In this document: positions 954 to 12,919 of the stretch, in pieces | Numbering within the stretch: the first letter of the stretch is position 1 | How the letters are laid out: each line of letters begins with the position of its first letter | Assembly: GCF_947492555.1 (NCBI RefSeq) | Contig: NZ_CANLNE010000003.1 | Location: 372,001-436,000, forward strand | DNA: 64,000 bases | Reading direction: 5' to 3' | Source: an uncultured Roseobacter sp. | Lineage (GTDB): Bacteria > Pseudomonadota > Alphaproteobacteria > Rhodobacterales > Rhodobacteraceae | Notes under the pieces: generated by a model | The model's database searches: none | What the model saw: the letters and a program-made list of their open reading frames with translations, nothing else | Told to the model about the DNA's origin: nothing | Translations under genes and position numbers: made by a program

Positions 954-3900
954 TCAATCCAGTTCCACCAGCAGGTCCTTGGCGTCAATCTGGCCACCCG
1001 GCGTGACATGCACCGCCTTGATCACCGCATCGCGTTCGGCATGTATCCCGGTTTCCATCTTCATCGCCTCTATCGTCAGCAGCAGGTCGCCCGCCTTGAC
1101 CTTGCCGCCGACACTGGCCGCAACCGAGGCGACGACACCGGGCATCGGCGCGCCGATATGATTGGCGTTGCCAACTTCCGCCTTGGGCCGCTGCGCCGTG
1201 CTGGCCTTGACCAGACGGTTGGGCACGCGGATCACGCGGGGTTGGCCGTTGAGCTCGAAGAACACCTTGACCTCGCCATCCTCGTTGGTGTCGCCCACCG
1301 CCTGCAACCGGATTTCCAGCGTCTTGCCGGGATCGATCTCGGCAGAGATTTCCTCGCCCGGTTCCATGCCGTAGAAAAACGTTTTCGTCGGCAGCGCGCG
1401 CACGGGGCCATAGGTGCGATGCCGTCCCATGTAGTCGAGGAAGACCTTGGGATACATCAGGTAGCCGCTCAGATCCTCATCATCGACCTCGCGGCCTTCC
1501 ATTGCATCCGATGCTTCCTTGCGCAGTGCTTCCAGATCGGCGGGCGGCAGGTGCTTGCCCGGGCGTTCGGTGTTGGGTTTTTCGTCCTTCAGCACTTTTT
1601 CCAGAATGCCAGCCGGGAAACCGCCGGGAGGCTGGCCAAGGTTGCCGCGCATCATATCGACAACGCTGTCGGGGAAGGCGACATCGGTCTGAGGGTTCTC
1701 CACGTCTGCGCGGGAGAGGTTCTGCGACACCATCATCAGCGCCATGTCACCCACCACCTTGGATGAGGGTGTCACCTTCACGATGTCGCCGAACATCTGG
1801 TTCACATCGGCATAGGTCTGCGCCACCTCGTGCCAACGGTCTTCCAGACCCAGACTGGCAGCCTGCGCCTTGAGGTTGGTGAACTGCCCGCCGGGCATCT
1901 CGTGCAGATAAACCTCGGAGGAGGGGGCCTGCATGCCGGTCTCGAAGGCCGCATAGTGGCTGCGCACCTCTTCCCAGTAATCCGAGATTTCGCGCACCGC
2001 CTGCATGGACAGCCCGGTGTCGCGATCCGTATGCTTGAGCGCCTCCACGACCGAGCCAAGTGTCGCCTGGGACGTGTTGCCCGAGAGCGCGTCCATAGCG
2101 CAATCCACTGCGTCCACGCCTGCTTCGGAGGCTGCGAGGATTGTGGCGCAGGCTACGCCTGCGGTGTCATGCGTGTGGAAGTGGATGGGCAGGCCAACTT
2201 CGGATTTCAGCGCCTTGATCAACTGACGGGCGGCGGCGGGCTTCAGCAGCCCCGCCATGTCCTTGAGGCCCAGCACATGGGCGCCCGCGTCCCGCAGCTC
2301 TTTGCCCATATCGACGTAGTATTTCAGATTGTACTTGGCGCGATCCGGATCATTGATATCGCCGGTGTAACAGATCGTGCCCTCGCAGACCTTGCCGTTC
2401 TCGATCACTGCGTCCATCGCGACGCGCATGTTTTCGACCCAATTCAGGCTGTCGAAGACGCGGAAGACATCGACGCCAGTTCTGGCCGCCACCCGTACGA
2501 ATTCCTGCACCACATTGTCAGGGTAGTTGGTGTAGCCAACGCCGTTGGAGGCGCGCAGCAGCATCTGGGTCATCAGGTTGGGCATGGCGGCGCGCAAGTC
2601 ACGCAGGCGCTGCCAGGGGCATTCCTGCAGGAAGCGGTAAGCCACGTCAAAGGTCGCGCCACCCCAGCATTCCACGCTGAAAAGCTGCGGCAGATTGGCG
2701 GCATAGGTCGGGGCCACCTTGATCATGTCATGGCTGCGCATCCGTGTCGCCAGCAGGGATTGGTGCCCGTCCCGCATGGTGGTGTCGGTGATCAGCAATT
2801 GCCGCTGCTGCTTCATCCAGTCGGCAACCGCTTGGGGCCCCTTCTGTTCCAGCAGGTTGCGCGTGCCCATCATTGGCTCTGCCTTGAGCGCGGGCGGCTT
2901 GGGGTTCCGCACATGGGCTGCGGGGCGCGGGTGGTCCTTGGTCTCCGGGTGCCCGTTCACCGTGATGTCCGCGATATAGGTCAAGACCTTGGTGCCGCGA
3001 TCCCGGCGGCGGGTGAACTGGAAGAGATCCGGCGTCTCGTCAATGAACTTGGTGTGGTAGGTGTTGTCGAGGAACGTCGGATGCTTCAGCAGGTTCTCGA
3101 CAAAGGCGATATTGGTGCTGACGCCCCGGATACGGAACTCGCGCAAGGCCCGGTCCATCCGGGAAATTGCCGCCTCCGGCGTCTGCGCCTTGGCGGTCAC
3201 CTTGACCAGCAGGCTGTCATAATACCGCGTGATCACCCCGCCCGAATAGGCCGTGCCCCCATCCAGACGAATGCCCATGCCGGTGGCCTCACGAAAGGCG
3301 GTGATGCGGCCATAGTCGGGGATGAAGTTGTTCTGCGGGTCCTCGGTGGTGATCCGGGTCTGCAGCGCGTGGCCGTTCAATTGCACGTCTTTCTGCGTGG
3401 GCTTGCCCGTCGCCTCGGCAATGCTCTTGCCCTCCGCGATCAGGATTTGCGCCTGCACGATGTCGATGCCGGTCACCTCTTCGGTCACGGTGTGTTCGAC
3501 CTGCACCCGCGGGTTCACTTCGATGAAGTAGAATTTGCCGTCGTCCATATCCATCAGGAATTCGACGGTGCCCGCGCATTCGTAATTCACATGCTTGCAG
3601 ATTTTGTAGCCCAGCTCGCAAATCTCTTCGCGCTGCTTGTCGGTCAGATAGGGGGCAGGGGCGCGTTCCACGACCTTCTGGTTGCGGCGCTGCACCGAGC
3701 AATCCCGCTCGTAAAGGTGATACATCCCGCCGTGCTTGTCGCCGAGGATCTGCACCTCCACGTGGCGCGCCTTGAGGATCATCTTTTCCAGATAGCCCTC
3801 GCCATTGCCAAAGGCGGCCTCTGCCTCGCGGCGACCCTCCAGCACCTTCTCTTCCAGCTCATCTTCGCCTTGGATCGGACGCATGCCGCGCCCGCCGCCG

Positions 3901-4394
3901 CCCCAGGAGGCTTTGAGCATCAGGGGGTAACCGATCTCTTTCGCCTCCGATTTGATGGCCTTCATGTCGTCGCCCAGCACTTCCGTGGCGGGGATGACCG
4001 GCACACCGGCCTCCATGGCCACCCGACGGGCGCTGGCCTTGTCACCTAGGGCACGCATGGTCTCCGCGCGCGGACCGATGAAGGTGATGCCGTTCTGATC
4101 ACAGGCATCGACAAAATCGGGGTTCTCCGACAGCAGCCCGTACCCTGGGTGGATCGCATCCGCGCCGGACGCCTTCGCGACCCGGATCATTTCATCGATC
4201 GACAAATATGCAGCGACGGGCCCCAACCCCTCGCCAATGCGATAGGCCTCATCCGCCTTGAACCGGTGCAGGCCAAGCTTGTCCTCTTCCGCATAAACGG
4301 CCACCGTTTTCTTGCCCATCTCATTGGCGGCGCGCATGATGCGGATGGCAATCTCACCGCGGTTGGCGATCAGGATTTTGCGGAAGTCAGTCAT
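954..4394 (-). CDS. pyc: Pyruvate carboxylase
   Basis: Biotin enzyme that carboxylates pyruvate to oxaloacetate with ATP and bicarbonate, an anaplerotic cytoplasmic step. The 1146-residue length is the full size of the single-chain enzyme. Domains run in the usual order: biotin carboxylase with ATP-grasp core (about residues 5-450), carboxyltransferase beginning near 535 with DTTMRDGHQSLLATR, the PYC/OADA region, and a biotinyl domain whose EAMKM motif places biotin on about Lys1112. GGAG lies six bases before the ATG. The gene stands alone: its neighbour on the same strand is 358 bp upstream. With malate synthase later in the window it fits a C4-replenishing metabolism. No odd features are seen. 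Confidence 0.97.
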   Translation of the reverse strand: MTDFRKILIANRGEIAIRIMRAANEMGKKTVAVYAEEDKLGLHRFKADEAYRIGEGLGPVAAYLSIDEMIRVAKASGADAIHPGYGLLSENPDFVDACDQNGITFIGPRAETMRALGDKASARRVAMEAGVPVIPATEVLGDDMKAIKSEAKEIGYPLMLKASWGGGGRGMRPIQGEDELEEKVLEGRREAEAAFGNGEGYLEKMILKARHVEVQILGDKHGGMYHLYERDCSVQRRNQKVVERAPAPYLTDKQREEICELGYKICKHVNYECAGTVEFLMDMDDGKFYFIEVNPRVQVEHTVTEEVTGIDIVQAQILIAEGKSIAEATGKPTQKDVQLNGHALQTRITTEDPQNNFIPDYGRITAFREATGMGIRLDGGTAYSGGVITRYYDSLLVKVTAKAQTPEAAISRMDRALREFRIRGVSTNIAFVENLLKHPTFLDNTYHTKFIDETPDLFQFTRRRDRGTKVLTYIADITVNGHPETKDHPRPAAHVRNPKPPALKAEPMMGTRNLLEQKGPQAVADWMKQQRQLLITDTTMRDGHQSLLATRMRSHDMIKVAPTYAANLPQLFSVECWGGATFDVAYRFLQECPWQRLRDLRAAMPNLMTQMLLRASNGVGYTNYPDNVVQEFVRVAARTGVDVFRVFDSLNWVENMRVAMDAVIENGKVCEGTICYTGDINDPDRAKYNLKYYVDMGKELRDAGAHVLGLKDMAGLLKPAAARQLIKALKSEVGLPIHFHTHDTAGVACATILAASEAGVDAVDCAMDALSGNTSQATLGSVVEALKHTDRDTGLSMQAVREISDYWEEVRSHYAAFETGMQAPSSEVYLHEMPGGQFTNLKAQAASLGLEDRWHEVAQTYADVNQMFGDIVKVTPSSKVVGDMALMMVSQNLSRADVENPQTDVAFPDSVVDMMRGNLGQPPGGFPAGILEKVLKDEKPNTERPGKHLPPADLEALRKEASDAMEGREVDDEDLSGYLMYPKVFLDYMGRHRTYGPVRALPTKTFFYGMEPGEEISAEIDPGKTLEIRLQAVGDTNEDGEVKVFFELNGQPRVIRVPNRLVKASTAQRPKAEVGNANHIGAPMPGVVASVAASVGGKVKAGDLLLTIEAMKMETGIHAERDAVIKAVHVTPGGQIDAKDLLVELD

Positions 4395-4752
4395 AGGGGG
4401 CTCCGGTCTTTCGCGCTATTGTGCAGGTGCAGCAACGTGTATGACGTTTGGGTAACTGCAACAACACGTAGTAGTGGGTATATCGCAAGAATCCGTGTTT
4501 GAACGGCGTTTTGCGAAGGTTGAACCCTCTGTAAACGCCGTTGGAGCAGGGATATTCCCTGCTGATTGAGCTTCCCGGTAACTTCCCTGACGTCTGGACA
4601 GCGTGCATATTGGCCGGGGTGCCAACGTCATGTGATCCCTTCTGACACAGAGTTCGAGATGGTTAGATATGTCCTGGCCGCTCGGGGTGGGGGCGTGCAC
4701 GACCGGGACTGCTCGCACGGAACACGCATGTCACTGTTGGGGTCGATCCAGG
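4395..4752. other. Intergenic region upstream of pyc
   Basis: This 358-bp gap separates pyc from the alpha-hydroxy-acid dehydrogenase gene, both on the minus strand. It must hold the pyc promoter. I found no ORF with a ribosome-binding site, no RNA gene and no strong hairpin in it. Confidence 0.4.
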
Positions 4753-10966: not shown

Positions 10967-11896
10967 ATGTCGCACTGGGTAAGAGCAGTTCTGGAAGAAG
11001 CCATCGGTAATGATGCACAGCGACCATCCCAAGTTATGGAGGGGCTGAAAAGGATTTCGCATATCATCGAAGAGTCTGATGCCATCCAGTTTCGCACGGA
11101 TGACATGGAGGAACTGGCCAACTCGATCAGTGTGTGCGACAACCTTACCGAGCTTTCGCAGCTTCTATGGCAGGCCGCAACCAACTCAGGATTCCAGCAT
11201 TTTTCTCTGTTTGTTGTCGAGCAGGGACGATCCGCAAACTTTTCATCGCGCATGTGTACGTCATACGGGCAAAATTGGCTTCGGCGACACGAGGAGAAGT
11301 CATATCAATTCGTCGATCCAGTCTTTCTGGAAGCAAAGTCCGGAAATGACAGTTTTCTGTTTAGCGATCTGAGTACGTCATCTCCACTTGTAAGAGAGTT
11401 TTGGGATGACAGGGAAGAGCACAATGTCGGGACCAAGGGAATGTGCTATGCGAGCACACGGCCAAATGGCGCACGTATCGCAGTCACGTTTTCATCTTCG
11501 GACAGCGAAGAAAAGTTTAGCGAGAATATCCGGTTCAACCGTTCGGACCTAGAAGCCGTGGCTCAGCTCGCAATAGAAGGTTTCCAACACTGCGCCTCTT
11601 TGACGAACTTAGACGACAATACTCTGTCAGCGCAGGAACTCCGGTTTCTGCACACTTTGGCTACAAGTTCGCACCCGGCCAGCGCGCTGACCATGAGTTC
11701 GCCATATGGAGGGAATAACTCCCTGCAGGTATCAATCCGGCGAAAACTGAATGTGGAAACGATCTTTCAAGCGCTGGCAACGGCAAGCGCGAACGGTTGG
11801 TTCGACAATTTGCCATTTTACTCAGACGACGTTGTGACGCCATTTCCCAAGCTGGTAGGTTGGGAAGCTGCAGAAATGGCAGAAACCGACACATGA
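10967..11896 (+). CDS. LuxR-type autoinducer-binding regulator (solo), degenerate HTH
   Basis: Cytoplasmic regulator of 309 residues with an N-terminal autoinducer-binding domain (about 50-180) and a C-terminal LuxR-like helix-turn-helix (about 219-281). Counting against TraR, the conserved acyl-homoserine-lactone residues Trp (104), Asp-Pro (117-118) and a Gly near 155-158 are present. The usual Tyr is His108 and the second Trp is Phe132, so the ligand pocket is altered. The HTH keeps its length and the frame (LSAQELRFL ... IRRKLNVETIFQALATASANGWF), but the recognition-helix residues (normally S-x-x-T-V-x-x-H) have diverged. No luxI-type synthase lies in the window, so it is a solo. Base composition is AT-richer than the surroundings, suggesting transfer or fast evolution. 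The DNA target is unknown, and weak DNA binding is possible. Confidence 0.7.
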   Translation: MSHWVRAVLEEAIGNDAQRPSQVMEGLKRISHIIEESDAIQFRTDDMEELANSISVCDNLTELSQLLWQAATNSGFQHFSLFVVEQGRSANFSSRMCTSYGQNWLRRHEEKSYQFVDPVFLEAKSGNDSFLFSDLSTSSPLVREFWDDREEHNVGTKGMCYASTRPNGARIAVTFSSSDSEEKFSENIRFNRSDLEAVAQLAIEGFQHCASLTNLDDNTLSAQELRFLHTLATSSHPASALTMSSPYGGNNSLQVSIRRKLNVETIFQALATASANGWFDNLPFYSDDVVTPFPKLVGWEAAEMAETDT

Positions 11897-12117
11897 AACG
11901 GTCCTGGCGCCAAAGTACTTCGCAGTAATTGAAGAGGCCGTCATTGTCTCTACGTTCTTGAGGTCTGGCGTCAAGGGCAGGACCGCGCTGGATGGTCCCC
12001 GTGGCGCAAGGTTCCCAGACCTGGGGTCCAGTCACCTCAATCGCGAGATTTTGAGCTATTTTCGGCCAGCGGTCCTTGCCCCGGTCAAAGGGTTGCAGCC
12101 GAGGCCGGAAAAGGAAA
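11897..12117. other. Spacer between the LuxR-type gene and the sRNA array
   Basis: I see no gene in these 221 bases. The minus-strand sRNA array ends into its right side with a T-rich tail, and the plus-strand LuxR-type gene ends at its left. Confidence 0.4.
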
Positions 12118-12193
12118 AAGGCGGCACCCGGGAGGAGGGAGCCGCCTTCTTTGTCCGCTGCAGCGACTAGGGAGGAGGAAAGCCCCTGCAGCG
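12118..12193 (-). ncRNA. CcsR-like sRNA unit 3 (two anti-SD hairpins, terminator-like last stem)
   Basis: Two hairpins read on the minus strand. The first (12156-12193) has an 8-bp stem CGCTGCAG/CTGCAGCG. The second (12118-12148) has an 8-bp stem AAGGCGGC/GCCGCCTT. Each loop displays CCTCCTCCC on the minus strand (complements of 12170-12178 and 12130-12138), which is complementary to a Shine-Dalgarno sequence. The last stem is followed on the minus strand by TTTTTCCTTTT, so it doubles as the intrinsic terminator of the whole array. The layout matches the CcsR/cuckoo sRNA family described in Rhodobacter. Confidence 0.8.
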
Positions 12194-12229
12194 TATGACA
12201 ACAAGCCATCTCGGCTTGGGTATTAGGGA

Positions 12230-12303
12230 CAGCGGCATCCGGGAGGAGGATGAATGCCGCTGCCTGGTCACAGACGCCCCAGGGAGGAGGAAAGGTGCGT
12301 CTG
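12230..12303 (-). ncRNA. CcsR-like sRNA unit 2 (two anti-SD hairpins)
   Basis: Hairpin 12271-12303 (7-bp stem CAGACGC/GCGTCTG, with an outer GGTCA/TGACC pairing) is followed on the minus strand by hairpin 12230-12262 (perfect 9-bp stem CAGCGGCAT/ATGCCGCTG). Both loops carry CCTCCTCCC on the minus strand (12282-12290 and 12241-12249). Stem sequences differ from the other units while the loops are conserved, the pattern expected for selection on structure and on the displayed anti-SD motif. Confidence 0.8.
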
Positions 12304-12374
12304 ATCTGGTGACCTGTCCCGGCTGCCCGATGGGCTGGAGGGAGAGGCGCGCAATTTCATGCGCTTTTGTAAGG

Positions 12375-12445
12375 GCGACGACATCCGGGAGGAGGATGAA
12401 TGCCGTCGCATGTTACAGACACTCTAGGGAGGAGACGAATGTCTG
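12375..12445 (-). ncRNA. CcsR-like sRNA unit 1 (two anti-SD hairpins)
   Basis: The first unit starts 14 bases past the CcaF1-like stop. Hairpin 12416-12445 (stem CAGACA/TGTCTG, outer TTACAG/CTGTAA pairing) displays TCTCCTCCC, one base off the consensus. Hairpin 12375-12409 has a 10-bp stem with one G-U wobble in the RNA and displays CCTCCTCCC in a loop identical to that of the matching hairpin in unit 2. In Rhodobacter sphaeroides such sRNAs are co-transcribed with and processed from the ccaF1 mRNA and respond to oxidative stress. The same is inferred here. Confidence 0.8.
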
Positions 12446-12459
12446 ATCTGTAAACAGGT

Positions 12460-12696
12460 TCACTTACCTGCGTGTTTCTCCGCTGCTTCGAGCGCCAGGC
12501 CGCGGATCATCGACCGGGACAGGCCCAGATCGTTCAGGTCGCGGTCGTTCAGCTGTGCCAACTCGTTATACGTCTCGCGGTACACGCGATATGTCGCATA
12601 GCGCTGCGCGGCAGCCTGAAGCAGGTTTGCGGTTGCAGCCAGCGCCCGTTCGATCAGGCTGGTGGATGCTGAATTCGTCTGTGTGTAGTAGGCCAT
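12460..12696 (-). CDS. ccaF1: DUF1127 protein, CcaF1-like RNA-binding small protein
   Basis: Small basic protein of 78 residues with the DUF1127 signature in its C-terminal half (YRETYNELAQLNDRDLNDLGLSRSMIRGLALEA). In Rhodobacter the homologue CcaF1 (about 71 residues) is an RNA-binding protein encoded immediately upstream of the CcsR sRNAs and influences their maturation. Here the same order is seen: the gene is followed after 14 bases by three CcsR-like units on the same strand. That context, more than the short sequence itself, supports the name. Expression under an RpoH-type heat/oxidative-stress sigma factor is known for the Rhodobacter locus and is only inferred here. DUF1127 proteins are numerous, so orthology rests on synteny. 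Confidence 0.8.
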   Translation of the reverse strand: MAYYTQTNSASTSLIERALAATANLLQAAAQRYATYRVYRETYNELAQLNDRDLNDLGLSRSMIRGLALEAAEKHAGK

Positions 12697-12919
12697 TTGC
12701 TGTGCCTCATCTTTCGTTCGTCGTTTTGTTGTGTCCCATATTTATGCTTATGCTGCGACTGCACAATAGACAGCTAAACAATGCTGCTATGCAGCAAATG
12801 CATGGGCGACCTAGCGTAAATTTATGCGTGTTGCTATAGGGTTAAGCAGTTTTCGACCCTAAATACTGTTAGCGGAAACAGGCGCTTATCTAAGTGGCGC
12901 ATATGAGGAGAAATTGAGC
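12697..12919. promoter_or_regulatory. Divergent promoter region ccaF1-like / mrp with inverted repeat
   Basis: This 223-bp region must hold the promoters for the DUF1127-sRNA operon (leftward) and for mrp (rightward). It contains an inverted repeat TGCTGC-TAT-GCAGCA at 12782-12796, a possible operator or hairpin. On the minus strand TTGTGC, 16 bases, TAAATA could serve as -35/-10 for the DUF1127 operon, but I cannot tell a sigma-70 from an RpoH promoter by eye. Confidence 0.4.

Follow-up and report, generated by a model that had tools for sequence, protein, structure and literature searches.

A cuckoo/CcsR-type RNA array behind a DUF1127 gene in an uncultured Roseobacter sp. and its candidate PhaR sites

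The locus and its closest described relatives

The closest described systems are the CcsR1-4 RNAs of Rhodobacter sphaeroides (RF02791), which, according to the accessible portions of the published accounts, are co-transcribed with ccaF1 from an RpoHI/RpoHII promoter, end at a terminator and are processed by RNase E (PMC10253847; PMC8625941; a further source on the system is PMC8307010). CcaF1 is described there as an RNA-binding protein with a part in CcsR maturation (PMC10253847). The ar14 RNAs share the CcsR loop motif and, in the excerpts available, are described as pairing with translation starts (PMC10746234; PMC7143759). One of them, NfeR1 of Sinorhizobium meliloti (RF02344), resembles the present locus in displaying an anti-Shine-Dalgarno (aSD) motif in every loop, in its variable stems and in a TGC-rich upstream regulator site; as far as the available descriptions go, it differs in having three hairpins and a sigma-70 promoter of its own with LsrB and NtrC sites. 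A third system, MmgR (ar8) of S. meliloti, offers a likeness at the level of the promoter: this small RNA is preceded by a PhaR site, CAATTGTGCACCGCAGCATTA, that closely resembles promoter site 2 here. However, MmgR belongs to another RNA family, its PhaR site has three central bases as against four here, and a DUF1127 gene goes unmentioned in the accessible text.

The window, by which we mean the whole stretch of 64,000 nucleotides that was analysed, carries on its minus strand an ordinary locus of the cuckoo/CcsR type (CIN1), a well-supported member of this known family (Table 1). Four features that characterize CIN1 are found: two-stem-loop units with CCUCCUCCC loops, stems that diverge, a DUF1127 gene and a Rho-independent terminator. 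The preliminary description had already read the locus in this way, and the DUF1127 neighbour, the paired aSD hairpins, the variable stems and the 3' terminator indeed agree with what the accessible text says of CcsR1-4 and CIN1 (PMC10253847). The DUF1127 protein has no match in NCBIfam, and is 99, 97 and 80% identical to proteins of Roseobacter-named records. With CcsR1-4 and ccaF1 the locus shares the DUF1127 gene, the tandem units, the CCUCCUCCC loops, the variable stems and the terminator at the end; it departs from them in having three units rather than four, a 71-nt gap with a hairpin of its own, Rfam scores below the gathering threshold, and PhaR- and LysR-type promoter sites that the accessible CcsR descriptions do not mention. 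Convergent with the array, on the plus strand at 10967-11896, lies a gene for an autoinducer-binding (LuxR-type) protein (PF03472, 65.3 bits).

The array itself is thus one further member of a widespread family, with clear covariation; the new part is the promoter. We favour, at a probability of roughly 0.7, a DUF1127-cuckoo RNA operon that would yield aSD small RNAs from a PhaR-repressed, RpoH-compatible promoter, which would give a testable regulator to RNAs that have hitherto been linked with RpoH (Rhodobacter) and LsrB (Sinorhizobium).

Table 1. Features of the locus, with positions in the window
Feature	Position	Strand	Evidence
Promoter site 1, ATGCATTTGCTGCATAGCAGCATTG, PhaR-type dyad CTGC-N3-GCAG	12779-12803	-	Top N3 dyad of window; genus PWM
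Promoter site 2, ATTGTGCAGTCGCAGCAT, dyad TGC-N4-GCA over -35-like TTG	12750-12767	-	Top N4 dyad of window; site-2 PWM
Putative -10-like element, CATAAATA	12739-12746	-	C.TA..TA conserved in genus alignment
DUF1127 gene, 78 aa, resembling ccaF1 in position and domain	12460-12696	-	PF06568, 51 bits (cut-off 23.3)
Hairpin 1 (H1), unit 1, class A, loop TCTCCTCCC at 12427-12435	12416-12445	-	Fold; helix 1, both-side changes in 8 of 9 pairs
Hairpin 2 (H2), unit 1, class B, loop CCTCCTCCC at 12387-12395	12375-12409	-	Fold; helix 2, 99.3% of cells paired
Spacer hairpin lacking an aSD motif, 71-nt gap	12349-12364	-	Fold; helix 3, 94.2% of cells paired
Hairpin 3 (H3), unit 2, class A, loop CCTCCTCCC at 12282-12290	12271-12303	-	Fold; helix 4, 99.1% of cells paired
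Hairpin 4 (H4), unit 2, class B, loop CCTCCTCCC at 12241-12249	12228-12264	-	Fold; helix 5, 98.2% of cells paired
Spacer hairpin in the H4-H5 gap	12202-12218	-	Fold, z = -3.45; absent from genus consensus structure
Hairpin 5 (H5), unit 3, class A, loop CCTCCTCCC at 12170-12178	12156-12193	-	Fold; helix 6, both-side changes in 9 of 10 pairs, 80.5% of cells paired
Hairpin 6 (H6), unit 3, class B, CCTCCTCCC at 12130-12138, doubling as terminator stem	12118-12148	-	Fold; motif
T-rich tail TTTTTCCTTTT, likely intrinsic terminator	12109-12119	-	Sequence

Structure, covariation and distribution of the array

Both strands of the window together contain five exact copies of CCTCCTCCC, all of them in the array, where 0.64 would be expected, and none of 100 shuffles reached five; the remaining loop, read directly from the sequence, differs from this motif by a single change. 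The 355-nt 3' UTR that holds the array folds at -154.8 kcal/mol (z = -7.96; none of 100 shuffles folded equally well), and all six aSD motifs fall in the loops of predicted hairpins, albeit with two bases of the motif paired in H6. Taken singly, H2, H4, H5 and H6 are exceptionally stable (z between -3.7 and -5.3), and H1 and H3 are unexceptional (z = -1.48 and -1.61, with 16 and 17, respectively, of 200 shuffles equally stable). The loops alternate between CCC-T(A/G) in H1, H3 and H5 and CCC-GG in H2, H4 and H6. The picture first drawn of this array, with six minus-strand hairpins behind the DUF1127 gene, five exact loops and one altered, three tandem two-hairpin units with two alternating loop classes, and a T-rich tail after the last hairpin, is therefore upheld throughout. 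The 3' side of H6 runs on into that tail, of which two T residues are paired in the predicted fold; the combination was absent from the output of a simple pattern scan for terminators. The gap between units 1 and 2 had been put at about 70 nt, and this length is confirmed, but the gap is not empty: it contains a small hairpin whose stem recurs across the genus. The H4-H5 gap, which is shorter, also contains a hairpin.

Conservation was followed in a genus set of 19 genomes, including the genome of origin (4.44 Mb). A DUF1127 homologue (E 0.001) is present in 18 of them, the genome of origin included, and in all 18 the best match is followed by aSD hairpins, six in 13 genomes and four in five; in the remaining genome, G015, the covariance model detects three units. 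Three units, as was noted at the outset in comparison with the four of Rhodobacter, are accordingly the commonest state in the genus (13/18). The 13 six-hairpin arrays were aligned to examine covariation over 70 pairs and 903 cells; 94.6% of the cells are paired, a value that falls to 37.5-50.6% when the partners are slid, and both sides have changed in 35 of the 70 pairs. None of 500 shuffles reached the observed values, with the caveat that the structure was predicted from the very alignment tested, a bias in its favour. The hairpin structure is under selection, and the earlier argument from stems that vary between units while pairing is kept holds; the stems also covary among relatives, where a lack of stem conservation would have counted against the array. 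Moreover, when the cells are read as minus-strand RNA, G-U combinations far outnumber A-C ones (102 versus 13), and the minus strand is consequently favoured as the RNA.

A covariance model with given structure (R2), built from 43 units of 16 genus genomes in place of a first model (R1) that caught one hairpin only, detects units in all 19 genus genomes, 16 of which were sources of the model, and in 210 of 248 family genomes (a single genome for each genus, the genome of origin included), with between 1 and 10 matches per genome. In the genome of origin, the three array units score 93.7, 75.8 and 62.3 bits, and there are two weaker matches. Rfam returned nothing in the 64-kb window at gathering scores; in a permissive search, which yielded CcsR1 and ar14, the three units align end to end with CcsR1 (RF02791) at 40.5, 38.0 and 27.9 bits (gathering score 65.3), and the best match to ar14 (RF02344), at 40.4 bits, is likewise below its cut-off of 58.8. 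Across 120 family genomes the CcsR1 gathering score is reached in seven and missed in 113, and a match at E 0.001 is present in 99; one family genome has four units with CcsR1 scores of 104.1, 65.6, 65.3 and 64.3 bits. Since the Rfam cut-off is usually missed in the family, we file the locus as cuckoo/CcsR-type and not as Rfam CcsR1 or ar14. The covariance search proposed in the preliminary description thus bears it out as regards the full-length CcsR1 alignment and the breadth of matches to the genus model, but not as regards the Rfam gathering score.

Promoter sites and candidate regulators

The 18 genus regions upstream of the DUF1127 gene share, with few exceptions, the pattern ATGCA..TGCTGCAT(A/G)GCAGCATTG, followed after about ten bases by ATTGTGCAnnnGCAGCAT and then by C.TA..TA. 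The wider conservation of these blocks was assessed at 109 family loci, namely arrays whose positions were listed or fetched, among which strong matches are over-represented (G062, with its array match at a contig start, was left out). A position weight matrix (PWM) trained on the 25-base first block in the genus alone outscores all controls in 94 of these 109 arrays from other genera; the controls peaked at 14.0 (545 shuffles) and 1.6 (reversed sequences). The count is kept as computed even though G184 was mis-anchored in it (-10.5; 34.2 when properly placed); the site-2 PWM exceeds its control maximum in 99 of the 109 loci. A screen of 2304 palindromes, made without prior assumptions, also placed TGC-rich ones at the top (69, 49 and 47 of 109 loci, against a mean of 1.27). 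Its promoter windows may have been misplaced in the 32 of 109 loci without a detected DUF1127 gene, and our conclusions are therefore drawn from the PWM and PhaR-matrix scans instead.

In 12 of 94 arrays no DUF1127-like ORF was found between site 1 and the array, the distance being 57-202 nt (G134, G110, G066, G158, G080, G112, G233, G131, G225, G146, G130 and G143); distances and ORFs were obtained by regular expression, and a further six of the 18 loci without such an ORF have room for one. The promoter thus appears linked to the RNA and not to the protein. Separately, DUF1127 relatives in L017 (Fluviibacterium sp. MJW13) and L021 (Rhodobacteraceae DSL-40) are followed by no exact aSD motif within 1 kb; in L017, site 2 is kept and site 1 is absent at a threshold of at least 12/15.

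The genus alignment conserves a TTG as well as the C.TA..TA element. The accessible part of PMC3441632 gives TTG as the -35 triplet that is conserved for either RpoH protein, and the sequence before the DUF1127 gene is compatible with an RpoH promoter. The accessible R. sphaeroides descriptions name only RpoHI and RpoHII for the CcsR promoter.

One likeness of the promoter is to sites of PhaR. The R. sphaeroides protein is reported to bind CTGCNNNGCAG (PMC12542648), a dyad of which type is contained in site 1, and PhaR is reported, again in accessible excerpts, to repress the small RNA MmgR (PMC12542648; PMC8401924). A half-site matrix was built from the 16 of 20 S. meliloti sites marked as efficiently bound (PMC12542648, Table 3), that is, without the four exoH sites, and scores were recomputed with all 20; the training sites themselves score 13.4-22.6 with the 16-site matrix. 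Over the 64 kb, the 16-site matrix ranks site 1 as the top dyad with three central bases (N3; 20.2) and site 2 as the top dyad with four (N4; 21.3), the next N4 dyad, at 18.2, lying just upstream of the gene at 954-4394. The 20-site matrix keeps this ranking (site 1, 19.9; site 2, 20.6; the third dyad, 17.1). An N3 dyad also occurs in the phaP promoter of the own genome (21.4, 16-site matrix). At the 109 loci, dyads above every shuffle (one shuffle per locus, preserving base composition alone) number 87 for N3, 100 for N4, one for N2 and none for N5 with the 16-site matrix, and 82, 72, none and none, respectively, with the 20-site matrix, whose higher N4 shuffle maximum (15.8) lowers the N4 count. 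Site 2 has four central bases, one more than the motif of S. meliloti and the consensus of R. sphaeroides; the N4 form is known as a PhaR-bound site in Paracoccus. The gene at 954-4394 (minus strand) is that of pyruvate carboxylase (pyc) by NCBIfam, and the dyad upstream of it, TTGTGCAGGTGCAGCA at 4419-4434 (region 4416-4437), resembles site 2 and lies about 25-40 nt before the gene; pyc is named among PhaR-affected genes in S. meliloti in the portion of the literature accessible to us.

The presence of phaR in the family allows a comparison. The gene is found in 240 of 248 family genomes and, in a second draw (completeness at least 95%), in 386 of 395; six of the nine genomes lacking it in that draw have units, and these are complete genomes from four genera. 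None of their six array promoters has a dyad above 8.3 (16-site matrix) or 9.1 (20-site matrix). The site-2 PWM passes in none of the four phaR-less genera as against 98 of 104 phaR-positive genomes (Fisher 3.9e-5, site 2 having been picked for this test after the data were seen), and the site-1 PWM in one of four (G322, 20.4) as against 92 of 104 (Fisher 0.008); the phaR-less genera are few, and may differ from the phaR-positive ones in other ways. G053 and G097 possess phaR and have neither promoter site. The comparison excludes three incomplete assemblies (71-89%) in which phaR is absent, G116, G241 and G184. Site 1 is retained in each of them, and site 2 in G116 and G184; the site-2 score of G241 (9.1) is below the control. 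The other two exact TGCTGCNNNGCAGCA sites of the own genome do not adjoin pha genes: one (L143, near 2271) is next to a CitMHS/TrkA-C transporter and the other (L144, near 2540) next to a TauE-type exporter.

A different regulator can be read from the same bases. The promoter block could be mainly the operator of a LysR activator of the LsrB/VtlR type, with PhaR playing no role, the recognition site lying upstream and the activation site over the -35 element, as compared with NfeR1, a related ar14 RNA, and with DUF1127 genes of Rhizobiales; we think this rather doubtful. The conserved site-1 block extends past the PhaR dyad, and the reversed VtlR motif (accessible text of PMC12595884) fits it at 12779-12793 in 13 of 15 bases. 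In 101 of the 109 family loci the best VtlR match falls at site 1, with a mean of 12.7/15; 40 shuffled VtlR motifs, run on 19 of the 109 loci, gave a mean of 9.9 (sd 0.22). Even in the phaR-less genomes the best match (10-13/15, where 10 is the level of shuffled motifs) is at the homologous place in five of six, G364 having it elsewhere. The two blocks are about 31 bases apart with the second over the -35 element, a spacing that we take to suit a LysR promoter. As to precedent, NfeR1 is described, in the part of the source available, as depending on LsrB, which is indispensable and acts via a TGC-rich site at -72 to -60 (PMC10746234), and VtlR as driving AbcR2 and three DUF1127 genes (PMC12595884). 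However, a LysR regulator alone leaves unexplained the fit of the PhaR matrix to N3 and N4 but not to N2 and N5, as well as the dyad upstream of pyc and the absence of both dyads in the phaR-less genera. The VtlR-matching bases at site 1 are those of the PhaR-type dyad itself, and the observations would also fit a promoter that PhaR and a LysR protein may share. On this reading of the sequences, PhaR control of the array promoter is likely and LysR control possible.

A literature search for CcsR1 together with PhaR gave no title on bacteria; a connection may be known in the original CcsR, CcaF1 and cuckoo papers. In the PhaR study (PMC12542648), DUF1127 is absent from the main text.

Proposed mechanism and role of the RNAs

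In the PhaR-repressed operon that we favour, a single minus-strand transcript would start near 12732 and run through the DUF1127 mRNA and a 3' UTR with three two-hairpin units to the terminator hairpin. Processing into small RNAs would, on the model of R. sphaeroides, fall to RNase E with the aid of the DUF1127 protein. The CCUCCUCCC loops could then pair with GGAGG-type ribosome-binding sites and lower the translation of a set of mRNAs. PhaR, a repressor titrated by polyhydroxybutyrate (PHB) granules, would bind both promoter dyads, of which site 1 lies about 55-60 bp before the likely start and site 2 reaches from the -35 element into the spacer. On an RpoH-compatible promoter, this would have the RNAs produced on storage-polymer build-up or under stress. 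Among 24 sites for GGGAGGAGG outside the array, three stand at ribosome-binding distance before credible starts, those of DctQ, a receiver-domain protein and an ABM protein; as a perfect Shine-Dalgarno sequence is by itself no evidence of targeting, no target assignment is claimed.

Pairing with mRNAs need not be what the loops are for. The array might instead be a sponge, its many identical loops holding the co-transcribed DUF1127 protein by a CsrB-like logic. The reported RNA binding of CcaF1 and its part in CcsR maturation (PMC10253847, in accessible excerpts) would suit such a role, as would the varying number of model matches per genome. However, in the 12 arrays with no DUF1127-like ORF between site 1 and the array, the RNA would be made without a DUF1127 gene in cis, and for the related NfeR1 the accessible text of PMC7143759 speaks of genetic confirmation of aSD pairing; we consider a sponge improbable. 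That the hairpins act in cis only, stabilizing the 3' UTR of the DUF1127 mRNA, is suggested by their position directly after the stop codon and the likely terminator at their end, but is very improbable, as stability requires stems and not a near-invariant nine-base loop, and some arrays have no preceding DUF1127-like ORF.

Extended to the Rhodobacteraceae as a whole, the proposal would make the cuckoo/CcsR operon a PhaR operon, in which a PHB-granule-titrated repressor stands over an aSD RNA array, with a LysR protein possibly sharing site 1; we put this only a little above even odds. Were it true, there would be a feedback loop from stored carbon to acetyl-CoA supply, because the CcsR RNAs of R. 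sphaeroides affect the pyruvate dehydrogenase complex. The promoter result would connect this RNA family to carbon storage, and predicts misregulation of CcsR in PHB mutants.

Additional matches and arrangements were encountered away from the main arrays. A hairpin between phaP and phaR, with ACTTCCTCCC in its loop and a terminator, scores 36.3 bits with the cuckoo model (L054, about 1501-1578; G000:C1:675903-675980). Weak matches to the cuckoo model occur elsewhere in G011, G016 and G010. In G012 and G005 (L040 and L041), two hairpins with aSD-like loops come after a second pair of DUF1127-like genes that lies separately from the main array.
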